Origin: a bacterium
GTDB taxonomy: Bacteria; Patescibacteriota; CPR2; UBA1875; JAJYID01
NCBI GenBank assembly: GCA_021790235.1
Contig: JAJYID010000001.1
Span: 1 to 43,130, forward strand
Direction of reading: 5' to 3'
DNA length: 43,130 nucleotides
Shown in pieces: positions 8,778 to 41,084 of this stretch. A model generated the notes under the pieces. The model did no database searches, was not told the DNA's origin, and was given only the letters and a program-made list of their open reading frames with translations. The translations under genes and the position numbers were made by a program. Numbering within the stretch: position 1 is the first letter of the stretch; the number at the start of each line of letters is the position of its first letter.

Positions 8778-9266
8778 CTATGAAACAGCCTTAGGGCTGT
8801 TTTTTGTTATAAGCCAGGAGTTGCCTCGGCTGCCATAGTGAGTTTTAACCAGAGAGTATCTGCCCTGCAATTTTGTGCCGTTTAGAATAAACTCAACTAC
8901 TTTAGCGTCTCTTTTGAAAAGTTCAAATGTGCCCTGATCCCATATTTTGACCGTTCCGGCTCCATAGTTGCCCTCCGGAATCACCCCTGCAAAATCAATG
9001 TAACTAACCGGATGATCCTCAACTTCAAGCGCCAGTTTCTTGGTACCAATTTTTTCCGGCATTCCTTTGGGGACAGCCCAGCTTTTTAATACAATTTCTT
9101 TTGAGTTCGGTTCTGCCGGCATTTCCAACCTGAAATCATAATGCAGACGAGAGGCATTGTGTTCCTGAACAACAAAACGATTCTCACCCTTTTGCTCGAC
9201 ATTTGCTTCCGGCTCGGGTGTGGCACTGAAATTTCTCTTTTTTTCGTACTTTTCTAAAATCATCAT
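8778..9266 (-). CDS. Stand-alone DNA ligase D 3'-phosphoesterase domain protein
   Basis: FVVQEHNASRLHYDFRLEM...SWAVPKGMP...LEVEDHPVSYIDFAGVIPEGNYGAGTVKIWDQGTF, the LigD-PE signature. Confidence 0.9.
   Translation of the reverse strand: MMILEKYEKKRNFSATPEPEANVEQKGENRFVVQEHNASRLHYDFRLEMPAEPNSKEIVLKSWAVPKGMPEKIGTKKLALEVEDHPVSYIDFAGVIPEGNYGAGTVKIWDQGTFELFKRDAKVVEFILNGTKLQGRYSLVKTHYGSRGNSWLITKNSPKAVS
8783..8805 (+). terminator. Rho-independent terminator
   Basis: AAACAGCC-TTAG-GGCTGTTT followed by TTT; downstream of the receiver gene. Confidence 0.7.
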
Positions 9267-22209: not shown

Positions 22210-22649
22210 TAGTTAATTTTCATTACGGTTGTCTCAAGTTCGTAAGTGGACCTAAGCCAAACCTTTTCGCCCAAAGACACTCTCTGATTATCAAAATATG
22301 CCCCGTCATTATAAACATATCCGGTTCCGGATAAAGTCACCCGTACTTCTTTAAAGTCAGTTCTGCCCGATCCTTCCGGCATTGGCAGAACATCAACTTT
22401 TGAAACAGAGGTTTTGACGAGGCCCCGCCCAAAATAGACTTGCTTTACTCCCTGCATGCTGTTAGCTATATCAGGTTGAATGTCATCAACATAAACTGTA
22501 ACCGTCATGGGTTTGGAAGATTTGGCGAGGGAACCAGTTTGCAGAAATTTAAAGCCGATGAGCCCAGCGATAATGACAAGAAAAATAAGAACTAAAAAAT
22601 CTAAAACATTAACTTTGCCGAAAAGCCGGCCTTCTTTATCTACTATCAT
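22209..22649 (-). CDS. DUF4330 family protein
   Basis: MIVDKEGRLFGKVNVLDFLVLIFLVIIAG N-terminus typical of DUF4330. Confidence 0.75.
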   Translation of the reverse strand: MIVDKEGRLFGKVNVLDFLVLIFLVIIAGLIGFKFLQTGSLAKSSKPMTVTVYVDDIQPDIANSMQGVKQVYFGRGLVKTSVSKVDVLPMPEGSGRTDFKEVRVTLSGTGYVYNDGAYFDNQRVSLGEKVWLRSTYELETTVMKIN

Positions 22650-24592
22650 GAACTAATCCTTTCCTTCATCACATTATAAAAGAATTTTGGCAAAACGAGA
22701 AATCTGCCCAGCCTTTTAGGGTTTTGGATCAAGCGCCAGATCCCTTCCAAATACATTTTTTGAATAACTTTCGGGGCTCTTTTTTCAACGCCCGACCAAT
22801 ACCGGAACGTACCACCGACTCCGATGCAGACCGCACCGAGTTCGCTTCTGTGCCGCACAATCCACCTTTCCTGCTTCGGGCATCCCAACCCCACAAAGAT
22901 AAAGCTAGGCTTTAGCTTTTTAATTTCCTTAATAATTTCGCTGTTTTTTTCAAATTTACCATCTAGACTACACCTGCCCCCATCTTTGTAACCCACAATT
23001 TTCACCTTCGGATATTTGACACGGATATTTTTAACCGCCTGATCGAGAATTTTCTTGGTAGCTCCCAAGAAATAAAAACTCAAATCCTCTTTAGAACCCT
23101 CCTGAATTAATATTTCGGCCAAGTCTGCTCCCCCAACCCTTTCAGGAAAATGCCTACCCAAAATCTTTCCGGCCAGAACCACTCCCGAGCCGTCGGCTGT
23201 CACCATATCAGCTTGAGCAAAAGTATCGTTTAGAGCTTTATCTTTCGCTCCTTTTGAAACTATCTCCGCATTTGCCGTCACTATGAAAAATCCTTCTCTT
23301 TCTCTGGCAGCATTCATAGCTTTCTCAACCGATTCACTGAAAGAATGCGGGTCAACTCCGACTCCCAGTATAGAATATCTTTTCTTTTTTTGCGTCTCCA
23401 GCCGCTTAATGATTTCCTCGGTTCTTACTTCCCAGGTATTTTCCTTTGCCTCCTTTAAAACCAAGGCCTGAAACTTCGGGTCGTCTTTCAACTTTATGGC
23501 TTTATCCAAATTCTCAACAAATTCTTCCTTTGACTTTGATGCCAGAACACTCCCATATTTTTTGCATTCCCGCATATCGGTGGTGACAATGGGTTTGCCT
23601 GCCGCCATGTACTCGAAAAGTTTTAAAGGTGAAATGGACTGAGTAACCTTATTTAGGACAAAGGGCACCATGCAAACATCGAAGAAATGAATTCTTTTGG
23701 CCAAATCTTCATATTTAGGAACTGTTCCGATAAAGTGGATATTTGGATAGTCGCTCCATCTATGCACGCCGTTTGAGGTATCGAAGTCAAGCGGTCCGCT
23801 AATTACGAAGTTATAGTCCGGTCGAGCTTTGGCCGCATACTTTAAAAGGTCATAGTCGAAACAGCTTTCTATTAAAGAGCCAAAGTAGCCGATTATCGGT
23901 TTCTTGCCGATTAGCTTTTTCATTTCGCTGTCCGGCTTGATGCGCTTGCCGACCAAATGCCAAACCTCAAACAAAACGGCATTGTGAGACAAGAATGCGT
24001 CAGGTCTTTTATCTTTAATCCCATCTAAGAGCCGGCTGGCTGTCACGGGAATGATGTCTGCCTTTTTCAGAAGCTCGTTGTGACACTTGTAGATTTTGTT
24101 GCCCAGAAGAGGAAACATTTCAAGATCATCTACGAAGTCATAAATGATCGACTTTACCCTGTATTTTCGGGTATAGAAACTATTAGCCGCCCAGGTGAGA
24201 TACAAAATCGGACCTTTAATGTCTTTTAAAACCTCGAGCTGGTTAGTTAAATAGAGATTTTTCTCAATTTTTTCAAATCCCTCAACTTTGTCATAGCGCA
24301 GATTATGAGTGCCATAGAAAAAAAGATAACCTGCCCTTGAGAATGTTCTGGCCAGATGATTAAACCGCTGAGTAAGCGGCATGTTCCAGTCGGAGATGGA
24401 AGGGTAAATAATAATCCCTTTGGCATCTTTGTGCTTATTTAAAATCTTTTGAAGTTCGACCTGGTATTTTTTCTTTTCAAAGTAGTTTTCTCGCCCTGTC
24501 AGATATGGATGTTTGCAAAGAAAAATTTTAAGAGAGTTTCGGACCTTAATTCCAAACATTTTTTTGCTTAACTTGATCGCCAATTCTTTCAT
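22646..24592 (-). CDS. Fusion: GT4-like glycosyltransferase + WecG/TagA/CpsF (GT26) glycosyltransferase
   Basis: N-terminal half GYFGSLIESCFDYDLL...QSISPLKLFEYMAAGKPIVTT; C-terminal half FFIVTANAEIVSKGAKD...ADMVTADGSGVVLAGKILG...FVGLGCPKQERWI...VGGTFRYWSG. ATG at 24592 overlaps the upstream stop as ATGA. Confidence 0.88.
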   Translation of the reverse strand: MKELAIKLSKKMFGIKVRNSLKIFLCKHPYLTGRENYFEKKKYQVELQKILNKHKDAKGIIIYPSISDWNMPLTQRFNHLARTFSRAGYLFFYGTHNLRYDKVEGFEKIEKNLYLTNQLEVLKDIKGPILYLTWAANSFYTRKYRVKSIIYDFVDDLEMFPLLGNKIYKCHNELLKKADIIPVTASRLLDGIKDKRPDAFLSHNAVLFEVWHLVGKRIKPDSEMKKLIGKKPIIGYFGSLIESCFDYDLLKYAAKARPDYNFVISGPLDFDTSNGVHRWSDYPNIHFIGTVPKYEDLAKRIHFFDVCMVPFVLNKVTQSISPLKLFEYMAAGKPIVTTDMRECKKYGSVLASKSKEEFVENLDKAIKLKDDPKFQALVLKEAKENTWEVRTEEIIKRLETQKKKRYSILGVGVDPHSFSESVEKAMNAAREREGFFIVTANAEIVSKGAKDKALNDTFAQADMVTADGSGVVLAGKILGRHFPERVGGADLAEILIQEGSKEDLSFYFLGATKKILDQAVKNIRVKYPKVKIVGYKDGGRCSLDGKFEKNSEIIKEIKKLKPSFIFVGLGCPKQERWIVRHRSELGAVCIGVGGTFRYWSGVEKRAPKVIQKMYLEGIWRLIQNPKRLGRFLVLPKFFYNVMKERISS

Positions 24593-25485
24593 TTGGTTTC
24601 TTCCCACTTTATGCCCCACTTTTCCTCAAACTTTTTCTTGTTCTCCTCAAATAACTCATTATACTTGCCTTTACCTAAACTAAAAAGGGAAATTTGTCCA
24701 AAATGATGCACAAAAACATCCTTAGCCACAACGATCTTATAACCTGATTTTACTACCCTTAAGCAATAATCATCATCTTCAAACATTCCAATACCAAATC
24801 TCTCATCAAGTTCACCGATTTTTCTAATTAATTCTGTTCGAGCTGCCACACAAAAGAAGGCAATATCGTCAGCTTCCCTGACTTTGCCTTTGTTTCGATT
24901 TGTAACGACACTCGATTTTTTTAGCATAGCACCTAGCGATCTATAGAAAATATCGATTTCCTGGTGGTTCCACATAAAGTTTGTTAGAGGTCCGACTAAT
25001 CCAACTTTTTTGTCTTTAAGTGGCAGAATAAGTTTTTCTACCCAGCCCGGCGTCACAATAGTATCGTTATTTAGAAAAATGATGTACTCTCCGGTTGCCT
25101 TTTTAATTCCCTGGTTACAACCGCCCGAAAACCCTTTGTTGGTTTTATTTAAAGTCAGCTTGACGTTTTTGTGTTCTTCTGCAAAGTTTCCCAAGAATTC
25201 TGGCGTTCCGTCGGAAGAATTATTATCTACTATGACTAGCTCAAGATCGCAGGTATCAGAATATGCCAGAATGCTGTAAAGACAGGCTTTGGTGTACTTA
25301 AGGTTGTTGAAGGTAAGTAAAATAATACTGACCTTCGGTTTTCCGAGTCCTTCTTTCTTCCGATTTTCAGTGCTTTTTTTGAGATTAGAAATCGCATCAT
25401 CAATATCTAACGGCATGTAGCGTTTTCGCACTATTTTTATGGTCTTTTTGGGTTTTAGAGCTGCCCTGACTATTTTTTTGATCAT
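24589..25485 (-). CDS. GT2 family glycosyltransferase
   Basis: VSIILLTFNNLKYTKACLYSIL, LELVIVDNNSSDGTPEFL, IIFLNNDTIVTPGW. Confidence 0.9.
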   Translation of the reverse strand: MIKKIVRAALKPKKTIKIVRKRYMPLDIDDAISNLKKSTENRKKEGLGKPKVSIILLTFNNLKYTKACLYSILAYSDTCDLELVIVDNNSSDGTPEFLGNFAEEHKNVKLTLNKTNKGFSGGCNQGIKKATGEYIIFLNNDTIVTPGWVEKLILPLKDKKVGLVGPLTNFMWNHQEIDIFYRSLGAMLKKSSVVTNRNKGKVREADDIAFFCVAARTELIRKIGELDERFGIGMFEDDDYCLRVVKSGYKIVVAKDVFVHHFGQISLFSLGKGKYNELFEENKKKFEEKWGIKWEETK

Positions 25486-26429
25486 TTTGCCACCCGTTTC
25501 TTTAGCTCTTGAAAATCAAGCCTTAGAAGTAAGCTTATACCTGTCACTGCCTTATGAAAAAATCTGTAACAAAAACCAGGAATTTGTAATATGAGCGGTT
25601 TTTGATCGTAGAAAATATTGTAATATTTATTAACTAGTTCCCGGTCCTTTCGATAAAGCCAACTTCTCCCATCCTCCTTGTAATATTTTTGCTCGTCAGG
25701 CTCCTCATTTGACCATTTTTTTAGAAATAGTTTGTTATTTTTAATGTCATAATCGTGGCGTCCAGGAGAAACGCTTTCATGGTGGATAATTACACTTTCC
25801 GGGCAGTAAATAATTTTGTATCCTTTGTTAAATATCTTCAAACAAAGATCAACATCTTCCATGCTGTTAAAATAGGTTTCGTCAAAGCCGCCCACCTCTT
25901 GGAAAATATCCCTTTTTACCGCCAAACAAGCGGCCGTTACAGCCTTAAATTCCCTTTGTTTGTTAACATAAGGCCTGTCCGGTGACTCGCGATAGTAAAT
26001 CGGGCGAGGGATGCGGTCATTTGCGATCACTATCCCAGCATGTTGAATAAGACCGTCCGGAAATAAGAGTTTAGAGCCGACTACCGCAACATCTTTCTTC
26101 TCTAGTACTTTAAGCAGGGACTCTAGCCATCCTTTTTGCACTTCGGTATCGTTATTTAAGAAAAGCAGAATGTCTCCCTTGGCTAACTTAGCGCCCTGGT
26201 TACAACCCTTGGCGAAACCGGTGTTAATCTTGTTTTCAACAAAGTTAATCCAGTCAATTTTTCTAAGATATTCCTGCGTCCCATCGGAAGATTTGTTATC
26301 TATAATAATGATGTCTTTTAAGAATTCTTTCGGCGTATTTTTCCTAAGCGCCTCTAAACATTTCTTAGTATAATCAAGCTTGTTGTATGTGAGAATAATA
26401 ATGCTAATATTAGACATATTTTTTCTCAA
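25482..26429 (-). CDS. GT2 family glycosyltransferase
   Basis: ISIIILTYNKLDYTKKCLEAL, DNKSSDGTQEYL, LLFLNNDTEVQKGWLE, GGFDETYFNSMEDVDLCLKI. Confidence 0.9.
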   Translation of the reverse strand: MRKNMSNISIIILTYNKLDYTKKCLEALRKNTPKEFLKDIIIIDNKSSDGTQEYLRKIDWINFVENKINTGFAKGCNQGAKLAKGDILLFLNNDTEVQKGWLESLLKVLEKKDVAVVGSKLLFPDGLIQHAGIVIANDRIPRPIYYRESPDRPYVNKQREFKAVTAACLAVKRDIFQEVGGFDETYFNSMEDVDLCLKIFNKGYKIIYCPESVIIHHESVSPGRHDYDIKNNKLFLKKWSNEEPDEQKYYKEDGRSWLYRKDRELVNKYYNIFYDQKPLILQIPGFCYRFFHKAVTGISLLLRLDFQELKKRVAK

Positions 26430-26433
26430 AAAT

Positions 26434-27336
26434 TTATCTTTTAATCTTCTTAAAAAATAAAATGACTTTTATCCATTTTAAATATATCTTTCTAAACTTT
26501 AGAATATTATTTGGAACCGTTCCGTACTTGTCTGGCACATACGCCATATATTTAATATTGAAAAAAAATATTTGAAGCCTATTAAAACCATCTTCTTTGA
26601 AATAGATATTAGCATCACTTAAAGTTTCCCACCATCTAGATATAAATAAATCAAGATTCCTTATTGTATATCTATGTCTATCTAAACTAATGCTTTCATG
26701 ATGTGTGACAACACTTTTTGGTTCATAAATAATTTTATAGCCAGCCTTGCCAATTTTAAGACATAGATCCATATCCTCATAGCCATTTTTATAATATTCA
26801 TCAAAACCACCAACTAAATCAAATACTTTTTTTGGTATTGCTATACATGCGGCACTAACAGCCTGGAATGTTCTCTTCTTATTAACATATTTTTTATTAG
26901 CCGGACTAAGGCGATATATATGTTCAGGTACCTTACTATCAAATATAGCTACACCTGCATGTTGTATAGTACCATTAGGGAAAAGGAGTTTAGCTCCAAC
27001 AGCTCCAATCATTTTTTCTTTTTTTAGTACATTGATTATAGGTATCAACCAATTATCATGAACTTCTGTATCATTGTTTAAAAACAATAAAACTTCATTT
27101 TTCGCAATATGGGCCCCTTGATTACAGGCACCAGAAAAATTATTATTTTGCTTATTTAAAATATAAGTAATATCCTTCTGGTCTTTTAAAAAACTTTGAG
27201 TACCATCAGTAGAAGCATTATCAACAACTATCATTTCATATAGATCTTTTTTAGTTTTTTCCCTAATTGCTTTTAAACATTTTTTTGTATAGCTAAGATT
27301 ATTATATGTGGGTATAATAATGGATACTTTTTTCAC
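26434..27336 (-). CDS. GT2 family glycosyltransferase, paralog of its neighbour
   Basis: VSIIIPTYNNLSYTKKCLKAI, DNASTDGTQSFL, LLFLNNDTEVHDNWL, GGFDEYYKNGYEDMDLCLKI. Confidence 0.9.
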   Translation of the reverse strand: MKKVSIIIPTYNNLSYTKKCLKAIREKTKKDLYEMIVVDNASTDGTQSFLKDQKDITYILNKQNNNFSGACNQGAHIAKNEVLLFLNNDTEVHDNWLIPIINVLKKEKMIGAVGAKLLFPNGTIQHAGVAIFDSKVPEHIYRLSPANKKYVNKKRTFQAVSAACIAIPKKVFDLVGGFDEYYKNGYEDMDLCLKIGKAGYKIIYEPKSVVTHHESISLDRHRYTIRNLDLFISRWWETLSDANIYFKEDGFNRLQIFFFNIKYMAYVPDKYGTVPNNILKFRKIYLKWIKVILFFKKIKR

Positions 27337-28544
27337 TTCAAACCATCCTTTATAGCCTGTTCTATAATTCTGGCTGATTTTTCCCAGCTTAAGTTCTTAA
27401 CCTGTTTTAGAGCATTATCTGACAATATTTTTCTCTTATCTTCGTTTTCAATTAAATCATTTATTACTTTAGCCATATCCTTAGGATTCAAGCTAGAAAG
27501 TGTTATATAATCATTATCCTGACCAAAAACAGCCCTAGTATTATCTCCATCAGCCTCGACAACGGGTAATCCGCATGCCATCATTTCTTGTGGTAAAAGA
27601 GAGTAGTTTGTTAAAGAAAGACTTATCCCAATCATGCTTTCTCTATAAAGATCAGCAAGTTCTTCATGGGTAAAGACTCCTCCATTCGTATACTCAAAAG
27701 TAACTTCTGGACTTTCTTTTTGACCAATAAATATTATTTCTATCTCAGGATGCTTCTTTTTTACCTGTTCGAGTGCTAACATAGCTATTTCAAAGCCCCT
27801 CCTAGGTGTAATTTGTCTACAATAATAGAGTATTTGCGGCTTTCTCTTGGCTTTCACTTTGGTATTATATATTTCTGGATCATACGCTAGATCATAATAA
27901 GTAGAGTTATTACCATACTCCTGCATTTTTTTTGTAAGCCATTTGCCTGCAGTTATACAGTTAAGTCCCATTTTATAAGTATTTTCAGCAAAAATATATT
28001 GACTACCCATTGGGAAAAATAATGGCTCAAAATCTTGAACAAAATAATATTTTGCCTTAGAATTTTCGTTTTCATGTACTATGTATGCGGTCTCCCAAGA
28101 GGTAGCTATTACTGCATCAGAATCTACCATATCTTCACAATTATCAAAAATGTCAGCTTGGAGTTCAAAGAAATTTTCATTAATAACAATTTTTGCATCT
28201 TTTGCAGTGCCAAAACTCGTACCACCATAAATGTATATATTACACTTGTGGCCAAATGACTCTAAATATTGAATTGCTCTAAAAATATTAAAGTGACCAC
28301 CAGATCCAATATAAAAGTCCGGTATAACCCAGTTGATTGTAAGATGATCCTTGAACACCTTTTCTTTTTTAACCTCTTTGGAAATTTTCTTCTCAGAAAG
28401 ACTGACATCACCAATAAAATTATATGGAAGTACAACTTCTCTAGGTCTTTTATCTCTTTTAGACCAGGCGACTGTTTTTTTTACAGCAATTAATAATCCT
28501 TGTTTTTTTACAATTTGAAAAAACTTTTTCATATATCTAAACAT
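27333..28544 (-). CDS. WsaF-like rhamnosyl-type glycosyltransferase (GT4)
   Basis: NWVIPDFYIGSGGHFNIFRAIQYLE, YYFVQDFEPLFFPMGSQY, SLTNYSLLPQEMMACGLPVVE. Confidence 0.8.
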   Translation of the reverse strand: MFRYMKKFFQIVKKQGLLIAVKKTVAWSKRDKRPREVVLPYNFIGDVSLSEKKISKEVKKEKVFKDHLTINWVIPDFYIGSGGHFNIFRAIQYLESFGHKCNIYIYGGTSFGTAKDAKIVINENFFELQADIFDNCEDMVDSDAVIATSWETAYIVHENENSKAKYYFVQDFEPLFFPMGSQYIFAENTYKMGLNCITAGKWLTKKMQEYGNNSTYYDLAYDPEIYNTKVKAKRKPQILYYCRQITPRRGFEIAMLALEQVKKKHPEIEIIFIGQKESPEVTFEYTNGGVFTHEELADLYRESMIGISLSLTNYSLLPQEMMACGLPVVEADGDNTRAVFGQDNDYITLSSLNPKDMAKVINDLIENEDKRKILSDNALKQVKNLSWEKSARIIEQAIKDGLK

Positions 28545-29535
28545 TTATCCTCCTTTTCATAGATAACTCCATAGAAATTCTATTTATTAAAAATTGTGGC
28601 ATCTTTTCATATCTGGCTCCCAAATATGCTCCCATTTGTCTATAAACATTCATAACAAATGCCTGACATAAATACTTTATTAAATTTTTGAATGGATATT
28701 CTTGTGCTTTTATATAGCATGCATCATTTATAAATTTTTTGATAGCATTTGGGATTATTTTTAAAATAGTTACACTATCAACAAATCCTATAGACTCTTT
28801 TAGACCCCTATATTCATCAAAATACCTACCAAGATATTCGCTTGTTGGATATGTGTGAGAATGGAAAACTGAAGCCATTGGACAATAAGCTTTTTTATAA
28901 CCAGAAAGAAGTATTTCTTTTCCCATTATTTGGTCTTCGGCATAGGAGACTTCTTTATAGGGGTGTTTTAACCAATAATTTTTTTTTATACTGGCGTTTA
29001 CATCTGAAAAAAACCCCACTATTCCTTCTATTTCTTCTCCTTTCTTTATAGACTGAATTACCGGGATGTCGTTTGAACCAAAATTTTTGAAGTGATTTTC
29101 CATATCTCTTTTAATAACTGGATTACAATTTTCTCTTGCTATATGGGGTCCAAATGTAGCTACTACTTTATTGTCTAAATCGTATGCACTTATAAGATTA
29201 GTAAGCCAGTTACCTGATATTGGAGTAGCATCCTGTGTTAAAAAAGCAACAATTTCAGACTTAGATTCTTTTATGGCTAAATTTCTTGTTTTACCATGAC
29301 CAAAATCTGTATTTTTTATTTTTATGACTCTAAATTCTTTGTTCTTTTTACTAAATAACTTATCGTACTTATTCACTATGTCTAAAGTTTTATCTTTTGA
29401 ATCAGAGTCTATAACAAGAACACTAAAGCTAAACTTTGTCTTTTGCTTTATTAAAGTTTTTAATATTTCTTCCAAATATTTCTCGCCATTGAACGTCAAT
29501 ATGGCAACTGTAACTTTTATATTTTTACTAGACAA
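28537..29535 (-). CDS. GT2 family rhamnosyltransferase-like protein
   Basis: VTVAILTFNGEKYLEEIL, DSDSKDKTLDI, GHGKTRNLAI, VAFLTQDATPISGNWL, YAEDQIMGKEIL. Confidence 0.87.
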   Translation of the reverse strand: MSSKNIKVTVAILTFNGEKYLEEILKTLIKQKTKFSFSVLVIDSDSKDKTLDIVNKYDKLFSKKNKEFRVIKIKNTDFGHGKTRNLAIKESKSEIVAFLTQDATPISGNWLTNLISAYDLDNKVVATFGPHIARENCNPVIKRDMENHFKNFGSNDIPVIQSIKKGEEIEGIVGFFSDVNASIKKNYWLKHPYKEVSYAEDQIMGKEILLSGYKKAYCPMASVFHSHTYPTSEYLGRYFDEYRGLKESIGFVDSVTILKIIPNAIKKFINDACYIKAQEYPFKNLIKYLCQAFVMNVYRQMGAYLGARYEKMPQFLINRISMELSMKRRINV

Positions 29536-30901
29536 TTTTTTTCCCCATAATCTTCGCTAAAATATTTCTCATTTTCCATATTCCAGAATTTTTAATTACA
29601 TTACTCTCTAATTCTAGTGTCTTTTTTTCTAACTCTAGCTGGTTAATATATTTGTGAGCATTTATATTATCATTCTCTAATTCGTTCTTCTCTAGTCTTA
29701 AAAAATGGTTTTTATTAGAAAGTTTTATTACTTCCAAGTCTAATTTTTTTCTTTTTTCCTCCAGCACCATAATTTGCGAATAGTATAAATCTGGTGCGAT
29801 ATCAGGATTTGATTTGCCAGCCACAGCAGACTTAATCGCCAACAAATTACTATAACCACTCTCTTTATCTGGCTCGATGTGACACCCTTCACCCCATTCA
29901 TTCCATGCATTTAAAAATACAAACTTTTCTTCAACATTAAGTACTTTATTTTTCTGAGTATTTTTAATTTGCTTTGAGACAAAGTACTGAAATATCTTTG
30001 CATTGCTACCCCAGAAAATCGCCCCCTTGCTCCCTCTTCTTGGCGTATTATCCCAAGATGGAAAAGCTCCTCTGAAATACTTATATTCAGGCACTTCCCT
30101 AGATATCATATTATTTACTACTAAATTATAGTCATAAAGCTCTGGGCCTTTTCCACTAAATACTTTCTTATCTTTAATAAAGTCTGAGTACATGTTTTCC
30201 TGAGTATTTACGGATGTCTCTTTTAGTCTCCAGTCAGGCGCAAACTCTATAGCTGCGTCAAAATTAATTTCTTTAGGATCTATAGAATCTTCTAGTCCCT
30301 CAACCCTCACTAGATATAAACCTTCTAAGCCAGCTTTTTTCACAGCCTTTCGCCAAATACTAGCTGATTTCTTTATATCAGGGAAGAGACTAGTTCTATA
30401 AATAACTAGTAAAGGCTTCTTATTAATTTTTATATAACGGCTATCTTTAAAAGTAGGTATTAAATCATTGATAAAAGCTAGATCATCTTTATCACTATGT
30501 TTTTGAGATATTAGGATTTCATCATCCTGTCCGTCCCATCGCCTTGTCCAGTTCTCGTTTGCCCAGCAAACACAAAAAGGAATATCTATTTTTTTAGAAG
30601 CTAAGACGTTTTGTAATGGGGTTTCAAGCAATTTTTTACCACCAAACCAATAATGATAAAAACAAAAACCATGAACACCATTTTCTTGAGCCATTTTTGA
30701 TTGCTTTTCTATAGTTTCTATATTTTTCAAATCATAGTAACCAATATCTTCAGATGGTTGATGTGGTTTATGGCCATTAAAGAAAGATTTGGCTTTTTTT
30801 ACATTTGTCCAATCAGTGAATCCCTCTCCCCACCATTTATCATTTTCCGGTATTTGGTGATATTGTGGCAAATAAAATGCAATTAGTCTTACCTTAATCA
30901 T
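29528..30901 (-). CDS. WbsX-type protein (GH99-like domain) with C-terminal coiled coil
   Basis: VRLIAFYLPQYHQIPENDKWWGEGFTDWTNVKKA, GFCFYHYWFGGKKLLE, CVCWANENWTRRWDG, FLNAWNEWGEGCHIEPD. Confidence 0.9.
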   Translation of the reverse strand: MIKVRLIAFYLPQYHQIPENDKWWGEGFTDWTNVKKAKSFFNGHKPHQPSEDIGYYDLKNIETIEKQSKMAQENGVHGFCFYHYWFGGKKLLETPLQNVLASKKIDIPFCVCWANENWTRRWDGQDDEILISQKHSDKDDLAFINDLIPTFKDSRYIKINKKPLLVIYRTSLFPDIKKSASIWRKAVKKAGLEGLYLVRVEGLEDSIDPKEINFDAAIEFAPDWRLKETSVNTQENMYSDFIKDKKVFSGKGPELYDYNLVVNNMISREVPEYKYFRGAFPSWDNTPRRGSKGAIFWGSNAKIFQYFVSKQIKNTQKNKVLNVEEKFVFLNAWNEWGEGCHIEPDKESGYSNLLAIKSAVAGKSNPDIAPDLYYSQIMVLEEKRKKLDLEVIKLSNKNHFLRLEKNELENDNINAHKYINQLELEKKTLELESNVIKNSGIWKMRNILAKIMGKKIV

Positions 30902-33785
30902 AACTATTGTCCTCCTCTAAAGCATCTTTTGTTGCCTGTAAATACGCATAACCATATCTCATGTCAGGCTCTAGATGTGCACCCTCAGCCCACTCATTCC
31001 AGGCATTAATAAATACAAACTGTTCGTTTTTCTGATTATGATTTTTAGTATATTTGATTACTCCACATAACCATTTTTTATATTGTAACGGACTTAGATT
31101 GTAAACACCTGCTCCAGTATAGGCCTTTCTAGGTGAGTTATCCCAACTTGGAAAAACAGTTTTAAATAAAGTATAATCCGTTTTATACTCGTATTTTTTC
31201 TCTTCAACATATTGATTCATGTCAACAATGGTCCCATCAAAACAAGGATTTATAAAGTCCTCTATCTTCTTCGTCTGGGTAACACTAGCAAGTGTATGAG
31301 GTGGAAATTCAACCACGGCATCAAGCCCCCATTCATTTGGGTTACCCTGAAAACCATGAGAGTTCGCGGTTACAAGATACAAGTCTGAAAAGCCATTCTC
31401 TTTAGCAATTTTCCTAAAATTATCAAACAAGCGTTTTGCCCGTTGTTGTTCAAACAAATGAGGTCTATAAATAATAAGAACAGGCTTATCATCGATTTTT
31501 ATATATCTTTTATCCTTAAAGAATGGAAGTACATCTTTCATAAAAAGCTTATCATCATCTTCGTTAAGTTCCTGTTTTATTAGCAACTCTTTATCACCTC
31601 CGTCCCAAAGTTTTGACCAATTCTCATTAGCCCAACATAAACAGAAGGGGAAATTAATTTCTTTATTTTCCAGCCAATTTATTATTGGCCTCTCAAGTAC
31701 TTTCCTGCCAGAAAACCAATAATAGTGAAAACAAAAACCATAGATCCCGTACATTTTAGCTAGTTCAACTTGTCTTTTCATGGTATCAATGTTCCTCAAG
31801 TCATAAAAACCAACATCATATGGTATCTGCGGTTGATAATGACCTATAAATTGAGGTGTTGCACTACTTACATTCGTCCATTCTGTAAATCCCTTCCCAT
31901 ATTGCTTATCATTTATATCAATGGGGTGGAATTGAGGTAAGTAAAAAGCAATCAATTTGGTAGACAATTTCCCTTTATAGGGGTGTTGTGTAATTTCAAC
32001 AAAATCCTCAGATGGGACAATATTTTGCTCGAGTAAAAATTGCAAATATTCATCTCTAGACTTTCTATCTTGTATTTCTTTTTCACTACTTTGTAAAAAG
32101 TCGGGTGTTGGAAGAACAGAATGAGAAGGGGTTATATAATGTCTTAATTTATGATATTCCTCGTAAAGTTTCCAAAACTTCGAGGACTTTATCCACGCTA
32201 TTTCCTGTTCTTTATCTCGCAGAGGTTTTTCTAATAGCTCAGCATGAGAGGCTGTTTCTTTTAAATCATCATTTCTTAAATCAAGTAAGCCCTGAGGTGC
32301 ATTATTCTCATCAAGCTTTATCATTCTGATATTTTTTGTTAGCGTTCTCTCATAATCAGTGTTAGTTTTTTTCACTTCCAAAACATATTGTAAAACATAA
32401 GAATGTAAGTCTCTAAATATACAGTCCTTTACAGTTACCTCTAATGAGTCATATGGGTTTGTCCCTTGAAAGCCGATTTTATCCCAGTAAGTATATTTAC
32501 TCTTTTTAATTTCTAGACCAATCTTGGCAAGAAATGGTGGTATAGATTTTTGGGTAAAAAATTTTACATGAGTTTCATCCAATAATCCTATTGGTGTATA
32601 AGTAAAATCGTCCAATAATAAATTGGCTTTTATACTTGAGTGAGCCAAATTTGGTATTGAGAGAACAAAAGAACCATTATCTTTTAATAAGGATTTTAAT
32701 TTCTCCAGTGTTTCCTGTGGAGCATATAGGTGCTCTAAAACGTCTCCAAGAAAAATATAATCAAAGTAGCCAGAAAATTTTAAGAATTCTTCTGCTTTGA
32801 ATTCATTTAAATCCACTTGGAAGATATCCTTAAACATATTTGTAGCTTTAGCAATCTTAATGCTAACCGAGTTATATTCCATGCCCCATATTTCTGCTTC
32901 CTTTTTTTGCTTCAGAACAATTGCGAAATCACCACAAGCACATCCTACATCAAGAATCTTTTTGGCAGGTTTTATATATTCAATACTTATATACTTTGAA
33001 TCATTCTTTGAAATTACTGGATTCTGATAAATTGTGCTCCTGTCTTCTTCTTTTACTTTTTTTATAATTAAATTTTTAGTTTTAATTTTTTCTGTATTTT
33101 TACCAATATTCAGAGTTATACCTGCAAAAGTATAATCTTTATATTTATTGTTTATATAAGGATATTTATCCGTACAAGTTGGTCTTTCAGAAATATTATC
33201 GAGCTGAGACCAATGACAAACAGCAAGCTTTAATACTTTAGACTTTATTTTATGTTTGATAAATGCATTTAAACAAAAGTCTTCCACATACAAATCCCAA
33301 TCAAGATTTTCATCAAACCTCAGGTCAAATTTTTTTATTAAAGAAGAGTGAACTATCAAGCTTTGGCAATCAAGAACATCTACAGTTGTGAGGTTTTTAA
33401 AACTAGATCCTAATTTTCTGTGATTTTTATTATCCCTAGTACAATCCAAAATTTCCCCTATGTAATCTCGCGACAAAATACCCTTGGATTTAGTTAACTT
33501 CGCCCCAAAGACACCGTACAATCCTTCTTTATTCAACTTTTTTATTTTAGGTGCAATATTTTCAAGAATTTCCCAGTCTTCATGGCAAAAAACAAACCAA
33601 CCAGGATTTGAAAAATCATAACTGTCTAAAAATTCATTATATCTTTTTGATAGCCCAATGTTTTCTTGACTGTTATCAAGTAGTTTTAGAATATTTTTAT
33701 CGTCTATAACGTGGGGGTTATCTCTTATAACCCTATTATACATATCAAAATCCCTGACCACTGAAATAAAAATTATATTGTCCAT
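30894..33785 (-). CDS. Multidomain fusion: StrF-type GT-like N-terminus + class I SAM methyltransferase + WbsX GH99-like domain
   Basis: N-term GWFVFCHEDWEILENIAPKIKKL...DWDLYVEDFCLNAF; middle AKKILDVGCACGDFAIVLKQ...FDYIFLGDVLEHLYAPQETLEKLKSLLKDNGSFVLSIPN; C-term LIAFYLPQFHPIDINDKQYGKGFTEWTNV...FINAWNEWAEGAHLEPD. Confidence 0.87.
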   Translation of the reverse strand: MDNIIFISVVRDFDMYNRVIRDNPHVIDDKNILKLLDNSQENIGLSKRYNEFLDSYDFSNPGWFVFCHEDWEILENIAPKIKKLNKEGLYGVFGAKLTKSKGILSRDYIGEILDCTRDNKNHRKLGSSFKNLTTVDVLDCQSLIVHSSLIKKFDLRFDENLDWDLYVEDFCLNAFIKHKIKSKVLKLAVCHWSQLDNISERPTCTDKYPYINNKYKDYTFAGITLNIGKNTEKIKTKNLIIKKVKEEDRSTIYQNPVISKNDSKYISIEYIKPAKKILDVGCACGDFAIVLKQKKEAEIWGMEYNSVSIKIAKATNMFKDIFQVDLNEFKAEEFLKFSGYFDYIFLGDVLEHLYAPQETLEKLKSLLKDNGSFVLSIPNLAHSSIKANLLLDDFTYTPIGLLDETHVKFFTQKSIPPFLAKIGLEIKKSKYTYWDKIGFQGTNPYDSLEVTVKDCIFRDLHSYVLQYVLEVKKTNTDYERTLTKNIRMIKLDENNAPQGLLDLRNDDLKETASHAELLEKPLRDKEQEIAWIKSSKFWKLYEEYHKLRHYITPSHSVLPTPDFLQSSEKEIQDRKSRDEYLQFLLEQNIVPSEDFVEITQHPYKGKLSTKLIAFYLPQFHPIDINDKQYGKGFTEWTNVSSATPQFIGHYQPQIPYDVGFYDLRNIDTMKRQVELAKMYGIYGFCFHYYWFSGRKVLERPIINWLENKEINFPFCLCWANENWSKLWDGGDKELLIKQELNEDDDKLFMKDVLPFFKDKRYIKIDDKPVLIIYRPHLFEQQRAKRLFDNFRKIAKENGFSDLYLVTANSHGFQGNPNEWGLDAVVEFPPHTLASVTQTKKIEDFINPCFDGTIVDMNQYVEEKKYEYKTDYTLFKTVFPSWDNSPRKAYTGAGVYNLSPLQYKKWLCGVIKYTKNHNQKNEQFVFINAWNEWAEGAHLEPDMRYGYAYLQATKDALEEDNSYD

Positions 33786-33787
33786 TT

Positions 33788-35020
33788 TTACTTACCCCAC
33801 CTATAATCTATATTTATTATCCCTTGATTTCTATCTACAGAAACTACTTTAAAAAAATTTGATTTTTCAAGGAGGTCGAGTGGCATTTCCTTTTTACTGC
33901 CCCAAATACCAACCTTTACATAGTATGAATTTGTTCTTAGAGGGATACCATCATACTCAACTTGAAAATAACCTTTTCTAAGATAAACAGATGTATCAAT
34001 TTTATCGAAAGAGGTATGTATCCCAAATATATAGTTTCCTTCACTATTATAAATAGCTACACCAAATTCTAAATTACTGATATTCTTATCTTTCTTAAAA
34101 TAAACTCGGACTTTAAGATTTTCACCAGTTTTGAAAATATTTTTCGGTTTTTCTGCTTTGTCTAGAAACTGAACTTTTGTTATCGATGCTTTTTTTGTTG
34201 GTTTCTTTTTATCGGAATTACTATCTGCTTTTTTTAAATCTTCACTATAGATTCTATTTTCTTCATCTTTTATGTTGTCCTGTGAATATTTATTCGCTAC
34301 TTCCTCGGCTCTACCAATTTTCATAACCTTTCCATTTCGGAGTAGCATCACTCTATCACAATGCTTCTGTACAGTGTTGATATCGTGAGAAACAAGAACA
34401 ACTGTCTTCCCTTGTTCCTTGTATTTATTAAACTCATCTATACATTTGCTTTGAAAATTAGTATCGCCAACCGCTAAAACCTCGTCCATCAAAAGTATTT
34501 CGGCATGAGCGTTTATCGCAAGTGAAAATGCTAAGCGTACTTGCATACCTGAAGAGTAGTTTTTCAGTTTCATATCTATAAACTCTTCCAGCTCAGAAAA
34601 CCTCACTATCTTATCGAATTTATCAGCTACCTCTTGTCTTGTGAGTCCAAGAATGGCTCCCCCTAAAAACAGATTTTCACGTCCAGTAAGTTCAGGGTTG
34701 AATCCTACCCCCAATTCAAGAAATGGAGAGAGTTTGCCGTGAATCTCGACTTTTCCTGTTGTTGGGACATAAATACCAGCTAGTATCTTTAGTAGCGTGC
34801 TTTTACCGCTACCATTTCTACCTATTATCCCAAAAAATTCACCTTTTTTTATCTCAAAAGACACATCTTTCAATGCCTTAAATGTTTCGTATGAGTTCTT
34901 TTTAAACATATTGATCGCAGCGCCCTTTAGATTGTTACGTTTTTCATGAGGAATACTAAATATTTTTGACACATTCTCCACTCGTATTGCTACCTCACTC
35001 TTATCTATATTTTTCTTCAT
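33788..35020 (-). CDS. Polysaccharide ABC transporter ATP-binding protein (Wzt-like) with C-terminal domain
   Basis: Walker A GIIGRNGSGKSTLLKIL, signature YSSGMQVRLAFSLAI, LLMDEVLAVGD, plus ~150-aa C-terminal beta-rich extension. Confidence 0.93.
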   Translation of the reverse strand: MKKNIDKSEVAIRVENVSKIFSIPHEKRNNLKGAAINMFKKNSYETFKALKDVSFEIKKGEFFGIIGRNGSGKSTLLKILAGIYVPTTGKVEIHGKLSPFLELGVGFNPELTGRENLFLGGAILGLTRQEVADKFDKIVRFSELEEFIDMKLKNYSSGMQVRLAFSLAINAHAEILLMDEVLAVGDTNFQSKCIDEFNKYKEQGKTVVLVSHDINTVQKHCDRVMLLRNGKVMKIGRAEEVANKYSQDNIKDEENRIYSEDLKKADSNSDKKKPTKKASITKVQFLDKAEKPKNIFKTGENLKVRVYFKKDKNISNLEFGVAIYNSEGNYIFGIHTSFDKIDTSVYLRKGYFQVEYDGIPLRTNSYYVKVGIWGSKKEMPLDLLEKSNFFKVVSVDRNQGIINIDYRWGK

Positions 35021-35040
35021 ATCTATTATTTAATTTATTT

Positions 35041-35829
35041 TTATACTTCCTCAGCAAACTTTGCTGCCATTTTCTGGAAAACCATATAACTAATACCAAG
35101 AATAGTTATCACCAAGATAAAAGGAATGACGGAATACCAACCTAAAACACTCCAAGAAGTAGTTATATTACCAGAAATAATTGTTGATCTTGCTCCTTGA
35201 ATAACCTGTGCCAAAGGACTCAACATTAAAATTTTCAAGAATCTTGTTGGCACTAAACTGGTAGGATAAAGGATGGGTGTTGCATAAAATAAACCTTGTG
35301 CTATAACTTCCCAAATAGGACCAATATCTCTAAACTTTACAAATATAGCTGCTAAGAAAAGTGACACAGAGATAGTAAAGATATAAAACTCTACTAAATA
35401 TAAAGGTAATATAAAAATATTAAATGTAAATGGTACCTTACTAAACATAGCAAAACCTGCTACCACGACCAGATTAAGTATCAGAGTTGCAAAAGATGTA
35501 AGACTTATAGCAATCGGCATAATAATTCTAGGAAAATAAACCTTTCTAATAAGGTCTCCATTACCAACTATAGAACCCATACACATAGAAGTTGTCTCAA
35601 CAAAAAATTGAAATAATGTAATACCTAAAAGTAAATATACCGCATAATAAGGGATGGTTGAACCAAGTTTAAAAACATTATTAAAAACTATGTATAGAAT
35701 AAGAAAAAGGAATAAAGGCTTCATCAGTGACCATAAATAACCAAAAAAAGACCCCTGATACTTCATCTTAAAACCTGTTATTGCCAACTCTCTGGTAAGG
35801 TCATAGTATTTAAGCTTATTTATTTTCAT
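35041..35829 (-). CDS. Polysaccharide ABC transporter permease (Wzm-like)
   Basis: ABC-2 family membrane protein, FKMKYQGSFFGYLWSLMKPLFLF N-terminus, adjacent to the Wzt-like gene. Confidence 0.9.
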   Translation of the reverse strand: MKINKLKYYDLTRELAITGFKMKYQGSFFGYLWSLMKPLFLFLILYIVFNNVFKLGSTIPYYAVYLLLGITLFQFFVETTSMCMGSIVGNGDLIRKVYFPRIIMPIAISLTSFATLILNLVVVAGFAMFSKVPFTFNIFILPLYLVEFYIFTISVSLFLAAIFVKFRDIGPIWEVIAQGLFYATPILYPTSLVPTRFLKILMLSPLAQVIQGARSTIISGNITTSWSVLGWYSVIPFILVITILGISYMVFQKMAAKFAEEV

Positions 35830-36939: not shown

Positions 36940-37478
36940 TTAACTCACATCCGCCCCATTGGGCAAGGCATTTAAAGTAGCCGGATCAGAATCATAAACA
37001 TCATACCAATTATAGCCATGCTCATTAAAAATGGTAATCGTAGGAATATAACACTTAGCACCACTTTCGATTAGATAAATTTTCCCGCTAGAAGGATCTC
37101 TGGCTAGTTTGGTTACTAAGTATCCATTTGAATATCCATCTAGATATGCATCATTAGGCGTGAAAAGAATATTGTTCCAATTAAACCCCCAGTTATTAAA
37201 GGTGTCTGAGCTGTTGATTGCTCTTTTTTCATGATTTTCGATAAAATAAACAGCCCCGCCATAAGAATGTGCTACTAGTTGCGGCAAGGTTATATCTGAT
37301 CCATTAGCCAACAATGAGAGAGTGTCAGAAGAAGCATCGCTAACTTCATCCCAATGAAATCCATAAAAATTGAATGTTTCTGGACTGTCTATCCATTGTT
37401 TGCTCCCATTAGTTACAAGATAAATCTTGCCATCAATTGTAGAGTTAGGCAGACGGGTAAGGGTTGGGGAAGTAGAAA
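36940..37478. repeat. Direct repeat copy 1 (539 bp)
   Basis: Matches 38937-39475 base for base except 36952 (c) vs 38949 (t). Confidence 0.97.
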
Positions 37479-38931
37479 AAGGGATAAGTACATTCTCTGT
37501 GGACCATCCTACGTCAGACCAGTTAAAGCCCCAGTTATTAAAGGTGCCCACGCTAGCTATAGCGTATTTTATATTTTGGCTGCTGAGAAAGTAGATCCGA
37601 CCAGTGTCCTTTGCCCCAACAAGTTGATGATTGAATATTGATTGCTTGATATTTATCCTTCCATAGCCATACTCTTGGCTAAAAACCTGTCCATTCATAT
37701 TTGGTACTTTATCAACCCAAATTTCGATTTTTGATACTATCTGATCATTTGTGAGGGTATTGTCTTGCGCCAGAAGTAAGCTTGCTTCACCGGTCACTTC
37801 AGGAGTTGCAAGTGATGTACCATCAGCAGTGGCATAACTATTTGAAGAGTATGAATTACCATCCCAAATTGTGGAAGACGATGTTATTGAAACTCCCGGA
37901 GCCGTAACATCAAGTTCTGGACCATAATTTGAACCCCAGCCATAATTTGCTGTTGTCACTCTTCTATCTTGGTTGTCTGTTGCACCGACAGCGATAACGT
38001 GAGGTTCGGCTGCCGGGTAATCGACTCCTTGCACATCATCATTACCGGCAGCAGCCACCAAAACAACCCCCTTCCCATAAGCATAATTTATAGCATTCTC
38101 TAATACTGTATCCGGCCCTAAGGCGTGTGATTCTCCGAAGCTCATATTAATAACCTTTGCTCCATTGTCTGCTGCATATTCTATAGCCGCGGCTACATTA
38201 ACACTGTTCCCACCGCCATTGTTATCAAGGCATCTAACAGGCATGATTTTTGCATTCCAGTCTATACCGGCTATACCCTTGCCGTTGTTGGCATTTGCAG
38301 CAATAACACCAGCTACCAATGTTCCGTGCATGTAAGAAGTGCCGCCGCCGCTTACTGGAGAAGGATCATTATCATTGTCAACAAAATTCCAACCGTATTT
38401 GTCATCTATATATCCATTATTATCATCGTCAACACCAGTTACACCATTTATTTCGGTCTGATTTTGCCAAATTCTCCCGGTAAATTCTTCATGAATCGGA
38501 TGGGCGCTATCCATACCCACATTTATGCCTGTATCAAGTACTGCAACGGTCACTGAACTACTACCTGTTGCTCCGGCAGCCCATGCTTGATCTGCCTTTA
38601 TCTGTGGTATATTCCACTGGTTTGGATAATCAGGGTCGTTAACTGTTGTTGCTTTATAATATTTGATTGGTTTTTTGTCTTTAATCAATAGGGGTTCGGT
38701 AACAATCCCCAAAATACTCACACTTTTTCTTTGAATTTTATATAGTCCGGGGGATGATTTGAGCTTGAGGTCTTTGACATCATAACCTTCATTTTTTAAT
38801 GTTTGTATGTTCTGAGGAGCTATTTTGCCAAAGAATGCAGATGAGTTGTCTGCTGATACAAGTTTAACACTTAAAATCAAAGTCAACGATAAAACAACGA
38901 ATAGAAATAATGCACAACGATAAAGCCTCAT
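36940..38931 (-). CDS. Secreted subtilisin-like serine protease (S8) with C-terminal YLxxxGxKR modules
   Basis: Signal peptide; catalytic motifs VAVLDTGI, HGTLVAGVIAA, GTSLATPEVTG; four C-terminal modules. Confidence 0.92.
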   Translation of the reverse strand: MRLYRCALFLFVVLSLTLILSVKLVSADNSSAFFGKIAPQNIQTLKNEGYDVKDLKLKSSPGLYKIQRKSVSILGIVTEPLLIKDKKPIKYYKATTVNDPDYPNQWNIPQIKADQAWAAGATGSSSVTVAVLDTGINVGMDSAHPIHEEFTGRIWQNQTEINGVTGVDDDNNGYIDDKYGWNFVDNDNDPSPVSGGGTSYMHGTLVAGVIAANANNGKGIAGIDWNAKIMPVRCLDNNGGGNSVNVAAAIEYAADNGAKVINMSFGESHALGPDTVLENAINYAYGKGVVLVAAAGNDDVQGVDYPAAEPHVIAVGATDNQDRRVTTANYGWGSNYGPELDVTAPGVSITSSSTIWDGNSYSSNSYATADGTSLATPEVTGEASLLLAQDNTLTNDQIVSKIEIWVDKVPNMNGQVFSQEYGYGRINIKQSIFNHQLVGAKDTGRIYFLSSQNIKYAIASVGTFNNWGFNWSDVGWSTENVLIPFSTSPTLTRLPNSTIDGKIYLVTNGSKQWIDSPETFNFYGFHWDEVSDASSDTLSLLANGSDITLPQLVAHSYGGAVYFIENHEKRAINSSDTFNNWGFNWNNILFTPNDAYLDGYSNGYLVTKLARDPSSGKIYLIESGAKCYIPTITIFNEHGYNWYDVYDSDPATLNALPNGADVS

Positions 38932-38936
38932 TTCTC

Positions 38937-39475
38937 TTAACTCACATCTGCCCCATTGGGCAAGGCATTTAAAGTAGCCGGATCAGAATCATAAACATCA
39001 TACCAATTATAGCCATGCTCATTAAAAATGGTAATCGTAGGAATATAACACTTAGCACCACTTTCGATTAGATAAATTTTCCCGCTAGAAGGATCTCTGG
39101 CTAGTTTGGTTACTAAGTATCCATTTGAATATCCATCTAGATATGCATCATTAGGCGTGAAAAGAATATTGTTCCAATTAAACCCCCAGTTATTAAAGGT
39201 GTCTGAGCTGTTGATTGCTCTTTTTTCATGATTTTCGATAAAATAAACAGCCCCGCCATAAGAATGTGCTACTAGTTGCGGCAAGGTTATATCTGATCCA
39301 TTAGCCAACAATGAGAGAGTGTCAGAAGAAGCATCGCTAACTTCATCCCAATGAAATCCATAAAAATTGAATGTTTCTGGACTGTCTATCCATTGTTTGC
39401 TCCCATTAGTTACAAGATAAATCTTGCCATCAATTGTAGAGTTAGGCAGACGGGTAAGGGTTGGGGAAGTAGAAA
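38937..39475. repeat. Direct repeat copy 2 (539 bp)
   Basis: Matches 36940-37478; constant offset 1997, no indels. Confidence 0.97.
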
Positions 39476-41084
39476 GAACACTTAGTATAGGGGAATATGA
39501 GATTGTAAAAACATCATTCTGATTAAATCCCCAATTTAAAAAGGTATTATAATTATTTATCAAGTGTTTAGAACCATTTCCAATAAGGTATATGCCAGGG
39601 CTCCCTTCTTGTTCAGCAAGATTTGATAAATTATTACCAGAAGGCAGTTCTTGCATTGTACTGTCATTTAAAGTATTAATAGTCGAAGCGTCAAACTTCC
39701 AGTCATTAAAAACTGTTGTACTTGGAATATAGCGTTTTCTACCTTGGTCTAAAACAAATTCATCTACCCCACTGCCTTTAATAAGGAAACTACCAAAGTC
39801 ACTACCAGCACTCAATGTGTTTAACAAGTCAGAAGAAATTATACAGATATTTCTTGCTGGAAAGCCAAGATGACCCAACAACCCTGAAACAAGAATGTGA
39901 TGTTTTACACCATTATCAACTAAGTATATATCAGTAGAAGGATCAGGGCCTTTCACTAGATATGAAAAATTCATCCCATTCGGTAAATAACCTAAAGTAA
40001 CTGAGCTAATGTGTAAAATATCGGCTCTATTAAAACCCCAAATATCGAATGCCGCCCAATCTGGTACCCAATGTTTACTCCCTGCATCGATAACATAAAT
40101 TGCACCTGCATCATCAGCAGCATAATTAGTTAGTGCAGTAGATGTCGTATAACTATTTAAAACATTTGAATCAATATAATTTACCGGATATTTGTTTAGG
40201 CCCCAATTAACATATTCACTACTGGAAATATATCTTTTTACATTGTTATCCAATAAATAAAGTGCTTTTGGATCTGGTGAGGATGAATCAGCAATGATGT
40301 TAGGCCCTTGTACCAAAAGTGATCCAAACCACGATGAGTAAATATTAGTAAAATCTGTTTGGATATGAGGTGTATAACGATATAGCGCTGCCGTTGCACC
40401 ATTACCTAAATATATTGACTGCCCATCTATAGGCACAGTATTACCTGTCCAATATATACCCGCATGCGAATCATGAGTATTTGCCCAAATGGCCCACTGT
40501 GCCAGGCCACCCGACCCCCAATCTACCTGCATAGCAAAGCCAGCACATGACCCACTTGGATTATAATTAGTGCTAGTACCACATGTAGCATTAATCCCAC
40601 TTTCGGTATAAGCATAGCCCATGGCCCACATAACATATCCATACCAAGGGCTAGAGTTATAAGTCACTAGACTTGACTCCTTCTGAAGGGTTGTAAGAAT
40701 AACCATGGGATTAATACCATACCACTGTGAATCCATATAAATTAAGTGAGCAGCACTCCATCCCGTGGCATCAACTTCCTGCCCAACTGGCCCAACCCAA
40801 GTTCCCTCATAATAATTCACACCCTGATATGTTTCATATCTGGCAGCTGGAACTGTATAATTTGCTAGATAACTACCATGGGAAACCAAAAAATTCTGAA
40901 TTGTTTGCTCAGTCATAGAGTTTTTATTGAAAAAAATGCTATCATCAATCACTCTACTATTATCAAATGCGAATGTTTTTTGGGGATGGGCGAATATAAA
41001 AAAAGGGCCAAGGACTAATAGTAGAAGTGTTGGCACCCCCTTGCCCTTGGATAGCAATCTGAACAGTATTTTAATGTTGAACAT
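38937..41084 (-). CDS. Secreted lysozyme/transglycosylase-like protein with about eight YLxxxGxKR modules
   Basis: Signal peptide, VIDDSIFFNKNSMTEQTIQNFL, GINPMVILTTLQKESSLVT (candidate catalytic Glu), then tandem modules to the C-terminus. Confidence 0.75.
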   Translation of the reverse strand: MFNIKILFRLLSKGKGVPTLLLLVLGPFFIFAHPQKTFAFDNSRVIDDSIFFNKNSMTEQTIQNFLVSHGSYLANYTVPAARYETYQGVNYYEGTWVGPVGQEVDATGWSAAHLIYMDSQWYGINPMVILTTLQKESSLVTYNSSPWYGYVMWAMGYAYTESGINATCGTSTNYNPSGSCAGFAMQVDWGSGGLAQWAIWANTHDSHAGIYWTGNTVPIDGQSIYLGNGATAALYRYTPHIQTDFTNIYSSWFGSLLVQGPNIIADSSSPDPKALYLLDNNVKRYISSSEYVNWGLNKYPVNYIDSNVLNSYTTSTALTNYAADDAGAIYVIDAGSKHWVPDWAAFDIWGFNRADILHISSVTLGYLPNGMNFSYLVKGPDPSTDIYLVDNGVKHHILVSGLLGHLGFPARNICIISSDLLNTLSAGSDFGSFLIKGSGVDEFVLDQGRKRYIPSTTVFNDWKFDASTINTLNDSTMQELPSGNNLSNLAEQEGSPGIYLIGNGSKHLINNYNTFLNWGFNQNDVFTISYSPILSVLSTSPTLTRLPNSTIDGKIYLVTNGSKQWIDSPETFNFYGFHWDEVSDASSDTLSLLANGSDITLPQLVAHSYGGAVYFIENHEKRAINSSDTFNNWGFNWNNILFTPNDAYLDGYSNGYLVTKLARDPSSGKIYLIESGAKCYIPTITIFNEHGYNWYDVYDSDPATLNALPNGADVS

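Follow-up and report, generated by a model that had tools for sequence, protein, structure and literature searches.

Type VII secretion offers the closest described counterpart of the repeats considered here. Its protein EccB has four periplasmic repeats, R1-R4, each of which in EccB1 folds into a four-stranded sheet with two helices; for R1 a likeness to PlyCB, a wall-binding protein of phage origin, was noted, and wall binding was put forward by the authors as a proposal only, peptidoglycan binding being left untested there (PMC4769845). In ESX-5, EccB5 dimerises via R1 and R4, and R4 contacts the subtilisin-like protease MycP5 (PMC8131196). A different repeat, CWB2 (PF04122), is described in PMC8881574 (citing Willing 2015) as anchoring C. 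difficile proteins via PSII. The stretch analysed here, 43,130 nucleotides of contig JAJYID010000001.1 (the window), comes from a patescibacterial genome of 514 kb that is 64% complete, and encodes an S8 subtilase, an adjacent lysozyme-like protein and a CHAP-domain protein, all of which carry tandem copies of one repeat module. This module is homologous to the periplasmic repeats R1-R4 of EccB and is widespread in the phylum, not peculiar to the window locus.

Homology of the repeat module to EccB

The hidden Markov model (HMM) of the module was seeded with the window repeats and iterated on related loci, which gave the consensus VYLIeNGkKRPIaSkevFlslGFnpdnIitVsdaeLdlYPtGepI, and was then rebuilt without any window row. 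The rebuilt HMM recovers eight modules in the lysozyme-like protein (E = 3.2e-64), four in the S8 protein (E = 9.4e-36) and three clear ones in the CHAP protein (E = 4e-31), where three degenerate copies lie between and after the clear ones; 300 shuffled and three reversed copies gave no match. An earlier note on this DNA had counted about four modules in the protease and about eight in its neighbour, the numbers that the HMM gives, and had described a divergent version on the CHAP protein, which belongs to the same family at the sequence level because an HMM free of window sequences matches it. The repeat unit is about 58 residues long with a spacing of about 59, successive modules following each other at 57-64 residues, and four is the most frequent number (52 of 66 proteins with head and modules). 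No Pfam family was matched within the modules when the window proteins were scanned.

The relationship to EccB is seen from both directions. Among 49 four-module arrays, 19 match the Pfam model of EccB (PF05108, best 5e-7) and 21 the corresponding TIGR03919, while the patescibacterial HMM finds EccB of Actinomycetes in several of its repeats (best 1.4e-11). HHalign places a four-module array (A3) end to end and in order on EccB R1-R4 (P = 1.6e-6); the signal disappears when EccB is reversed or its columns are shuffled. Modelled with AlphaFold2 (pLDDT 85.7, pTM 0.54), the S8 modules form separate units with the order strand-strand-strand-helix-strand-helix, and ranks 1-10 of a Foldseek search of the PDB with this model are all EccB (E 3e-5 to 1e-3). 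The earlier note had called for such a prediction of the C-terminal region and could name no Pfam family for the module; the module indeed has no Pfam entry of its own, but its fold is not nameless. A four-bladed propeller, suggested by the modal number of four and by weak hemopexin matches, was rejected in view of the separate units and of EccB as top match.

The likeness to EccB thus comprises a homologous unit of about 50-60 residues, the same strand and helix order, usually four copies, and collinearity in the profile alignment. In contrast to EccB, the patescibacterial arrays are fused to secreted enzymes and have no central core domain between the repeats, the modules running on directly. 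They also stay below the curated EccB cut-off of 27 bits in all 97 relatives (window genome included), and the window proteins have no PF05108 match. Neither EccB nor EccD (YukD) exceeds its cut-off in these 97 genomes, that of the window being incomplete as stated above. We found nothing on EccB in Patescibacteria in the literature searched.

SLH and the wall-binding domains of phage lysins (PlyCB, LysIME-EF1) are likewise small repeated or oligomeric units carried by hydrolases, but they have no sequence match to the module, and the structural match to LysIME-EF1 is weak and not significant (Foldseek E 0.22). SLH, CWB2, LysM and choline-binding families have no Pfam match in the window proteins, and across the 49 arrays the only wall-anchor family found was Choline_bind_4, in three members at 0.014 or worse. 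By sequence the PDB holds no solved relative for the profile of the module or of the lysozyme-like head. The S8 module array has no protein match in phages or plasmids and no relative in viral contigs.

The same modules were also seen on other heads, namely a D-Ala-D-Ala carboxypeptidase (S11) following a lysozyme head, SpoIID with PA14, and an amidase-like protein (among L020:1276-3468, L030:670-3573 and L085:10384-12606). Two further loci (L032, L035) encode long proteins, rich in beta structure and S-layer-like (frames of 1207-1377 residues), that carry three EccB-like modules at the N-terminus, directly behind the signal peptide; these modules possibly anchor a patescibacterial surface layer.

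A conserved protease-lysozyme pair with matched scaffolds

Pairs were defined as a same-strand S8 gene within 2.5 kb of a lysozyme-like gene, the distance being mostly within 160 bp. There are 36 such loci in eight families of Patescibacteria (f1, that of the window, f22, f26, f36, f47, f62, f70 and f79); one of the 36, the Saccharibacteria record L085, has no family label. Both partners have the same scaffold in 34 of the 36 pairs, EccB-like in 33 and three CWB2 repeats in one (G035). The latter locus (L191:629-5997) has the two genes in tandem, three CWB2 repeats on each, followed by a gene for an ECF sigma factor. The two unmatched pairs are L222, which has a short S8 open reading frame (ORF), and L085, whose lysozyme-like protein is distant and module-less. 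In one genome of family f41 (G186, L275:3525-6785) a single ORF encodes a lysozyme-like head, Ig-like repeats of the NBR1 type, an S8 domain and the same Ig repeats again.

The scaffold is exchangeable, since relatives of the head carry Ig-like domains, CWB2 or PG_binding_1 in place of the modules. Within the window's own family the heads of G006 and G003 are 71% and 61% identical to that of the window; the former carries Ig-like repeats and the latter, in a shorter ORF, has no modules. Elsewhere the module slot is taken by CWB2, PG_binding_1 or DUF5648. These alternatives include a proven wall binder (CWB2) and a putative one (PG_binding_1). CWB2 resembles the EccB-like scaffold in forming tandem repeats on many enzyme heads and in taking its place on both G035 partners; it differs in having three repeats of unrelated fold and sequence, and in that its binding to PSII has been shown experimentally.

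The S8 domain of the window matches PF00082 above cut-off (168.6 bits, 2.5e-49), and its Asp, His and Ser motifs are intact (AVLDTG, HGT, GTSLATP). Its best NCBIfam model is the mycosin TIGR03921, which it does not reach (161.7 bits against a cut-off of 278.75). A subtilase working with EccB repeats is a feature of mycosin MycP, but the window S8 protein is below that equivalog cut-off, and a specific link was dropped: since the CWB2-bearing S8 protein scores as high (189.7), the likeness is that of S8 proteins in general. The CHAP domain (PF05257) likewise exceeds its cut-off (47.4 bits against 26, 2.9e-12). In the lysozyme-like head, the Glu of an L-x-K-E motif is invariant in 56 heads and in all 38 paired heads. 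The head was modelled with a pLDDT of 90.5, and its top structural matches, weak one at a time, fall as a group almost entirely among autolysins, lytic transglycosylases and g-type lysozymes. In an even sample of 381 patescibacterial genomes the head is present in 147 (39%), and it also occurs in some Actinobacteria and in a Paenibacillus.

Of the 36 paired loci, 31 have genes for a glycosyltransferase, flippase or exporter nearby, the window being longer than the other loci. For unpaired loci with a lysozyme-like head and modules the figures are 7 of 29 and a further 6 of 58, or 13 of 87 in total. Direct checks in six families found GT2, a Wzx-type flippase or an epimerase as immediate neighbours of the pair.

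We propose that EccB-type repeat domains serve here, independently of type VII secretion, to attach Sec-exported enzymes non-covalently to the cell envelope. These enzymes are a subtilase, a muramidase-like lysozyme and a CHAP peptidase, of which the first two would form a functional pair, probably one operon; as both carry the same scaffold, they would dock at the same place and act jointly on protein and peptidoglycan there. The likeliest site is the wall of the cell itself or a surface glycan linked to that wall; in several lineages glycan genes surround the pair. We give a probability of roughly 60% to the matched repeats holding protease and muramidase at one envelope site in this way. 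The interchangeable scaffold would be moved between heads by recombination, the window providing the freshest case (see below).

Several observations weigh against this proposal. The CWB2-type pair has no adjoining glycan genes. Most paired loci come from one clade of five families, which leaves few independent cases of the association with glycan genes, namely that clade, the window and G199. The orientation of the modules in the model is uncertain (pTM 0.54), and the TM score to EccB is only 0.22, because the units are oriented differently. The predicted head matches lysozymes weakly when these are taken individually (best E 0.097). Binding of the modules to the envelope is putative, and EccB repeats are known to make contacts between proteins.

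Because EccB repeats make protein contacts in type VII secretion, complex formation is the strongest rival. The repeats would then join the protease and the lysozyme, and perhaps the CHAP protein, in one assembly and would not be a glycan anchor. The ESX-5 contacts cited above, with a subtilisin-like protease docked on R4, are the precedent, and the scaffolds would match in 34 of 36 pairs because the partners must fit; in the window, G199 and G035 the S8 scaffold is also most like that of its own partner. In the main clade, however, S8 scaffolds are far closer to other S8 scaffolds than to those of their partners, many lysozyme heads have modules without an adjoining protease, and the slot accepts unrelated CWB2 and Ig-like domains, which would not keep an EccB-type interface. 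We regard such an assembly role as less likely than anchoring.

A rather improbable alternative is that the pair is directed outwards, the enzymes being released or displayed at a contact site and the repeats binding the envelope of the bacterium on which this putative epibiont lives, so that its wall is opened. Cultivated Patescibacteria are obligate episymbionts (PMC12206443), protease, muramidase and CHAP would make a lytic set, and single modules weakly match phage lysin proteins in structure. Self-anchoring is favoured over attack by the association with glycan loci of the cell itself and by the replacement with CWB2; the head is as common as stated above and occurs with many different scaffolds, and no host is known for the window organism.

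With envelope anchoring as the preferred role, a broader picture can be sketched tentatively, and we hold it to be a minority possibility: a patescibacterial surface system in which protease and muramidase always share one type of interchangeable anchor. The commonest of these anchors would be a repeat in its free-standing state, and from that repeat the periplasmic part of EccB would have been built. If so, EccB would represent a wall anchor that was recruited, and the partnership between protease and EccB in type VII secretion would have a parallel outside secretion. The repeat fold is already known from EccB; the literature searched contained no mention of its free and widespread use on patescibacterial hydrolases, of the protease-muramidase pair with matched anchors or of the exchange for CWB2, nor a characterised anchoring system of this kind for patescibacterial surface proteins. 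One of the commonest unnamed modules on these surface proteins receives a fold and relatives. An origin and, in envelope anchoring, a testable function are also suggested for the EccB repeats in mycobacterial type VII secretion, for which the ligand has so far been a guess. The conserved pair is a candidate for wall remodelling or breaching by these mostly epibiotic cells.

A 539-bp block common to both genes

The 3′ ends of the S8 and lysozyme-like genes share a block of 539 bp (Table 1) with a single mismatch, at base 36952, which falls in a third codon position and is silent; the longest uninterrupted identical run is 526 bp. One edge lies exactly at the shared stop codon, the other is abrupt and in module register, and the flanks are unalike. 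Owing to this identity, S8 modules 2-4 are exact copies of lysozyme-like modules 6-8. Such identity suggests that scaffold DNA was copied very recently, and the block edges are as expected for homologous recombination or gene conversion. The earlier note had inferred a common surface-docking or glycan-binding scaffold reused on a protease and two probable wall hydrolases. The reuse is borne out and docking is the best reading, glycan binding being putative, but the scaffold is not special to this locus and all protease modules except the first were copied recently; as these three are not independent, the note's total of about 18 modules amounts to about 15 distinct ones.

An assembly artefact would give the same picture if a repeat of diverged module DNA had been wrongly filled, the real end of the S8 gene being different. 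Near-total identity beside unalike flanks is what such an error would leave, and in 33 other S8-lysozyme pairs the longest run common to the partners is only 9-18 nt. We nevertheless consider it unlikely: the block preserves reading frame and module register at its junction and terminates at the same stop codon, S8 module 1, which lies outside it, is still a member of the family, and comparable identities occur elsewhere. The G186 fusion has a 130-nt block identical between its lysozyme-like and S8 parts, and stretches of 265-369 bp are perfectly duplicated within related lysozyme-like scaffolds. For the main clade, concerted evolution between partners as a general process was rejected, because there S8 scaffolds group with S8 scaffolds and the shared DNA does not exceed the 9-18 nt given above; it is only in the window, G199 and G035 that the two scaffolds of a pair are most alike. 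In a family relative (L011/L196, G006:C72) a perfect 369-bp tandem duplication lies within the scaffold of the lysozyme-like gene.

Gene layout and neighbouring genes

The earlier coordinates of the S8 and lysozyme-like genes are correct, and both genes turn out to be encoded on the minus strand, where the S8 gene follows the lysozyme-like gene after a gap of 5 bp. The glycan locus is flanked by this pair on one side and by the CHAP gene on the other. By eye, all three proteins have an N-terminal signal peptide or membrane segment, and no C-terminal transmembrane helix or sortase signal was seen in any of them. The CHAP-domain protein has a homologue over its full length in G006.

Table 1. Positions of the features discussed, in window coordinates
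Feature	Position	Strand	Description	Basis
539-bp block, copy 1	36940-37478	-	3′ end of S8 gene	
539-bp block, copy 2	38937-39475	-	3′ end of lysozyme-like gene	
S8 subtilase gene	38931-36940	-	663 aa, presumably secreted; has a signal peptide; S8 domain at aa 125-424; C-terminal array of four EccB-like modules	
S8 module array	36952-37596	-	4 modules: 37471-37596, 37297-37425, 37123-37251, 36952-37080	HMM; AlphaFold model (pLDDT 85.7)
Lysozyme-like protein gene	41084-38937	-	715 aa, presumably secreted; head at aa ~30-258, contains the invariant Glu; C-terminal array of eight EccB-like modules	No Pfam family matched by head
Lysozyme-like module array	38949-40259	-	8 modules	HMM
CHAP-domain protein gene	18722-20710	-	662 aa; 6 modules and C-terminal domain	CHAP match; HMM without window sequences; full-length homologue
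CHAP clear modules	20012-20143, 19628-19756, 19244-19372	-		HMM without window sequences
Wzm/Wzt-type ABC glycan exporter	33788-35829	-	Adjoins the S8/lysozyme-like pair	PF01061 and PF14524
Glycan-locus genes: Wzy-like ligase, glycosyltransferases, others	20746-33785	-	Between CHAP gene and exporter	Wzy_C match; rest from reading translations

Within the glycan locus, two adjoining genes (29528-33785, minus strand) encode a similar domain with H-x-P-Y-H/F-P-Q motifs, WbsX-like by eye, which in one of them is fused behind a methyltransferase-like part. A small stand-alone protein encoded at 8778-9266 (minus strand) resembles, again by eye, the 3′-phosphoesterase domain of DNA ligase D.

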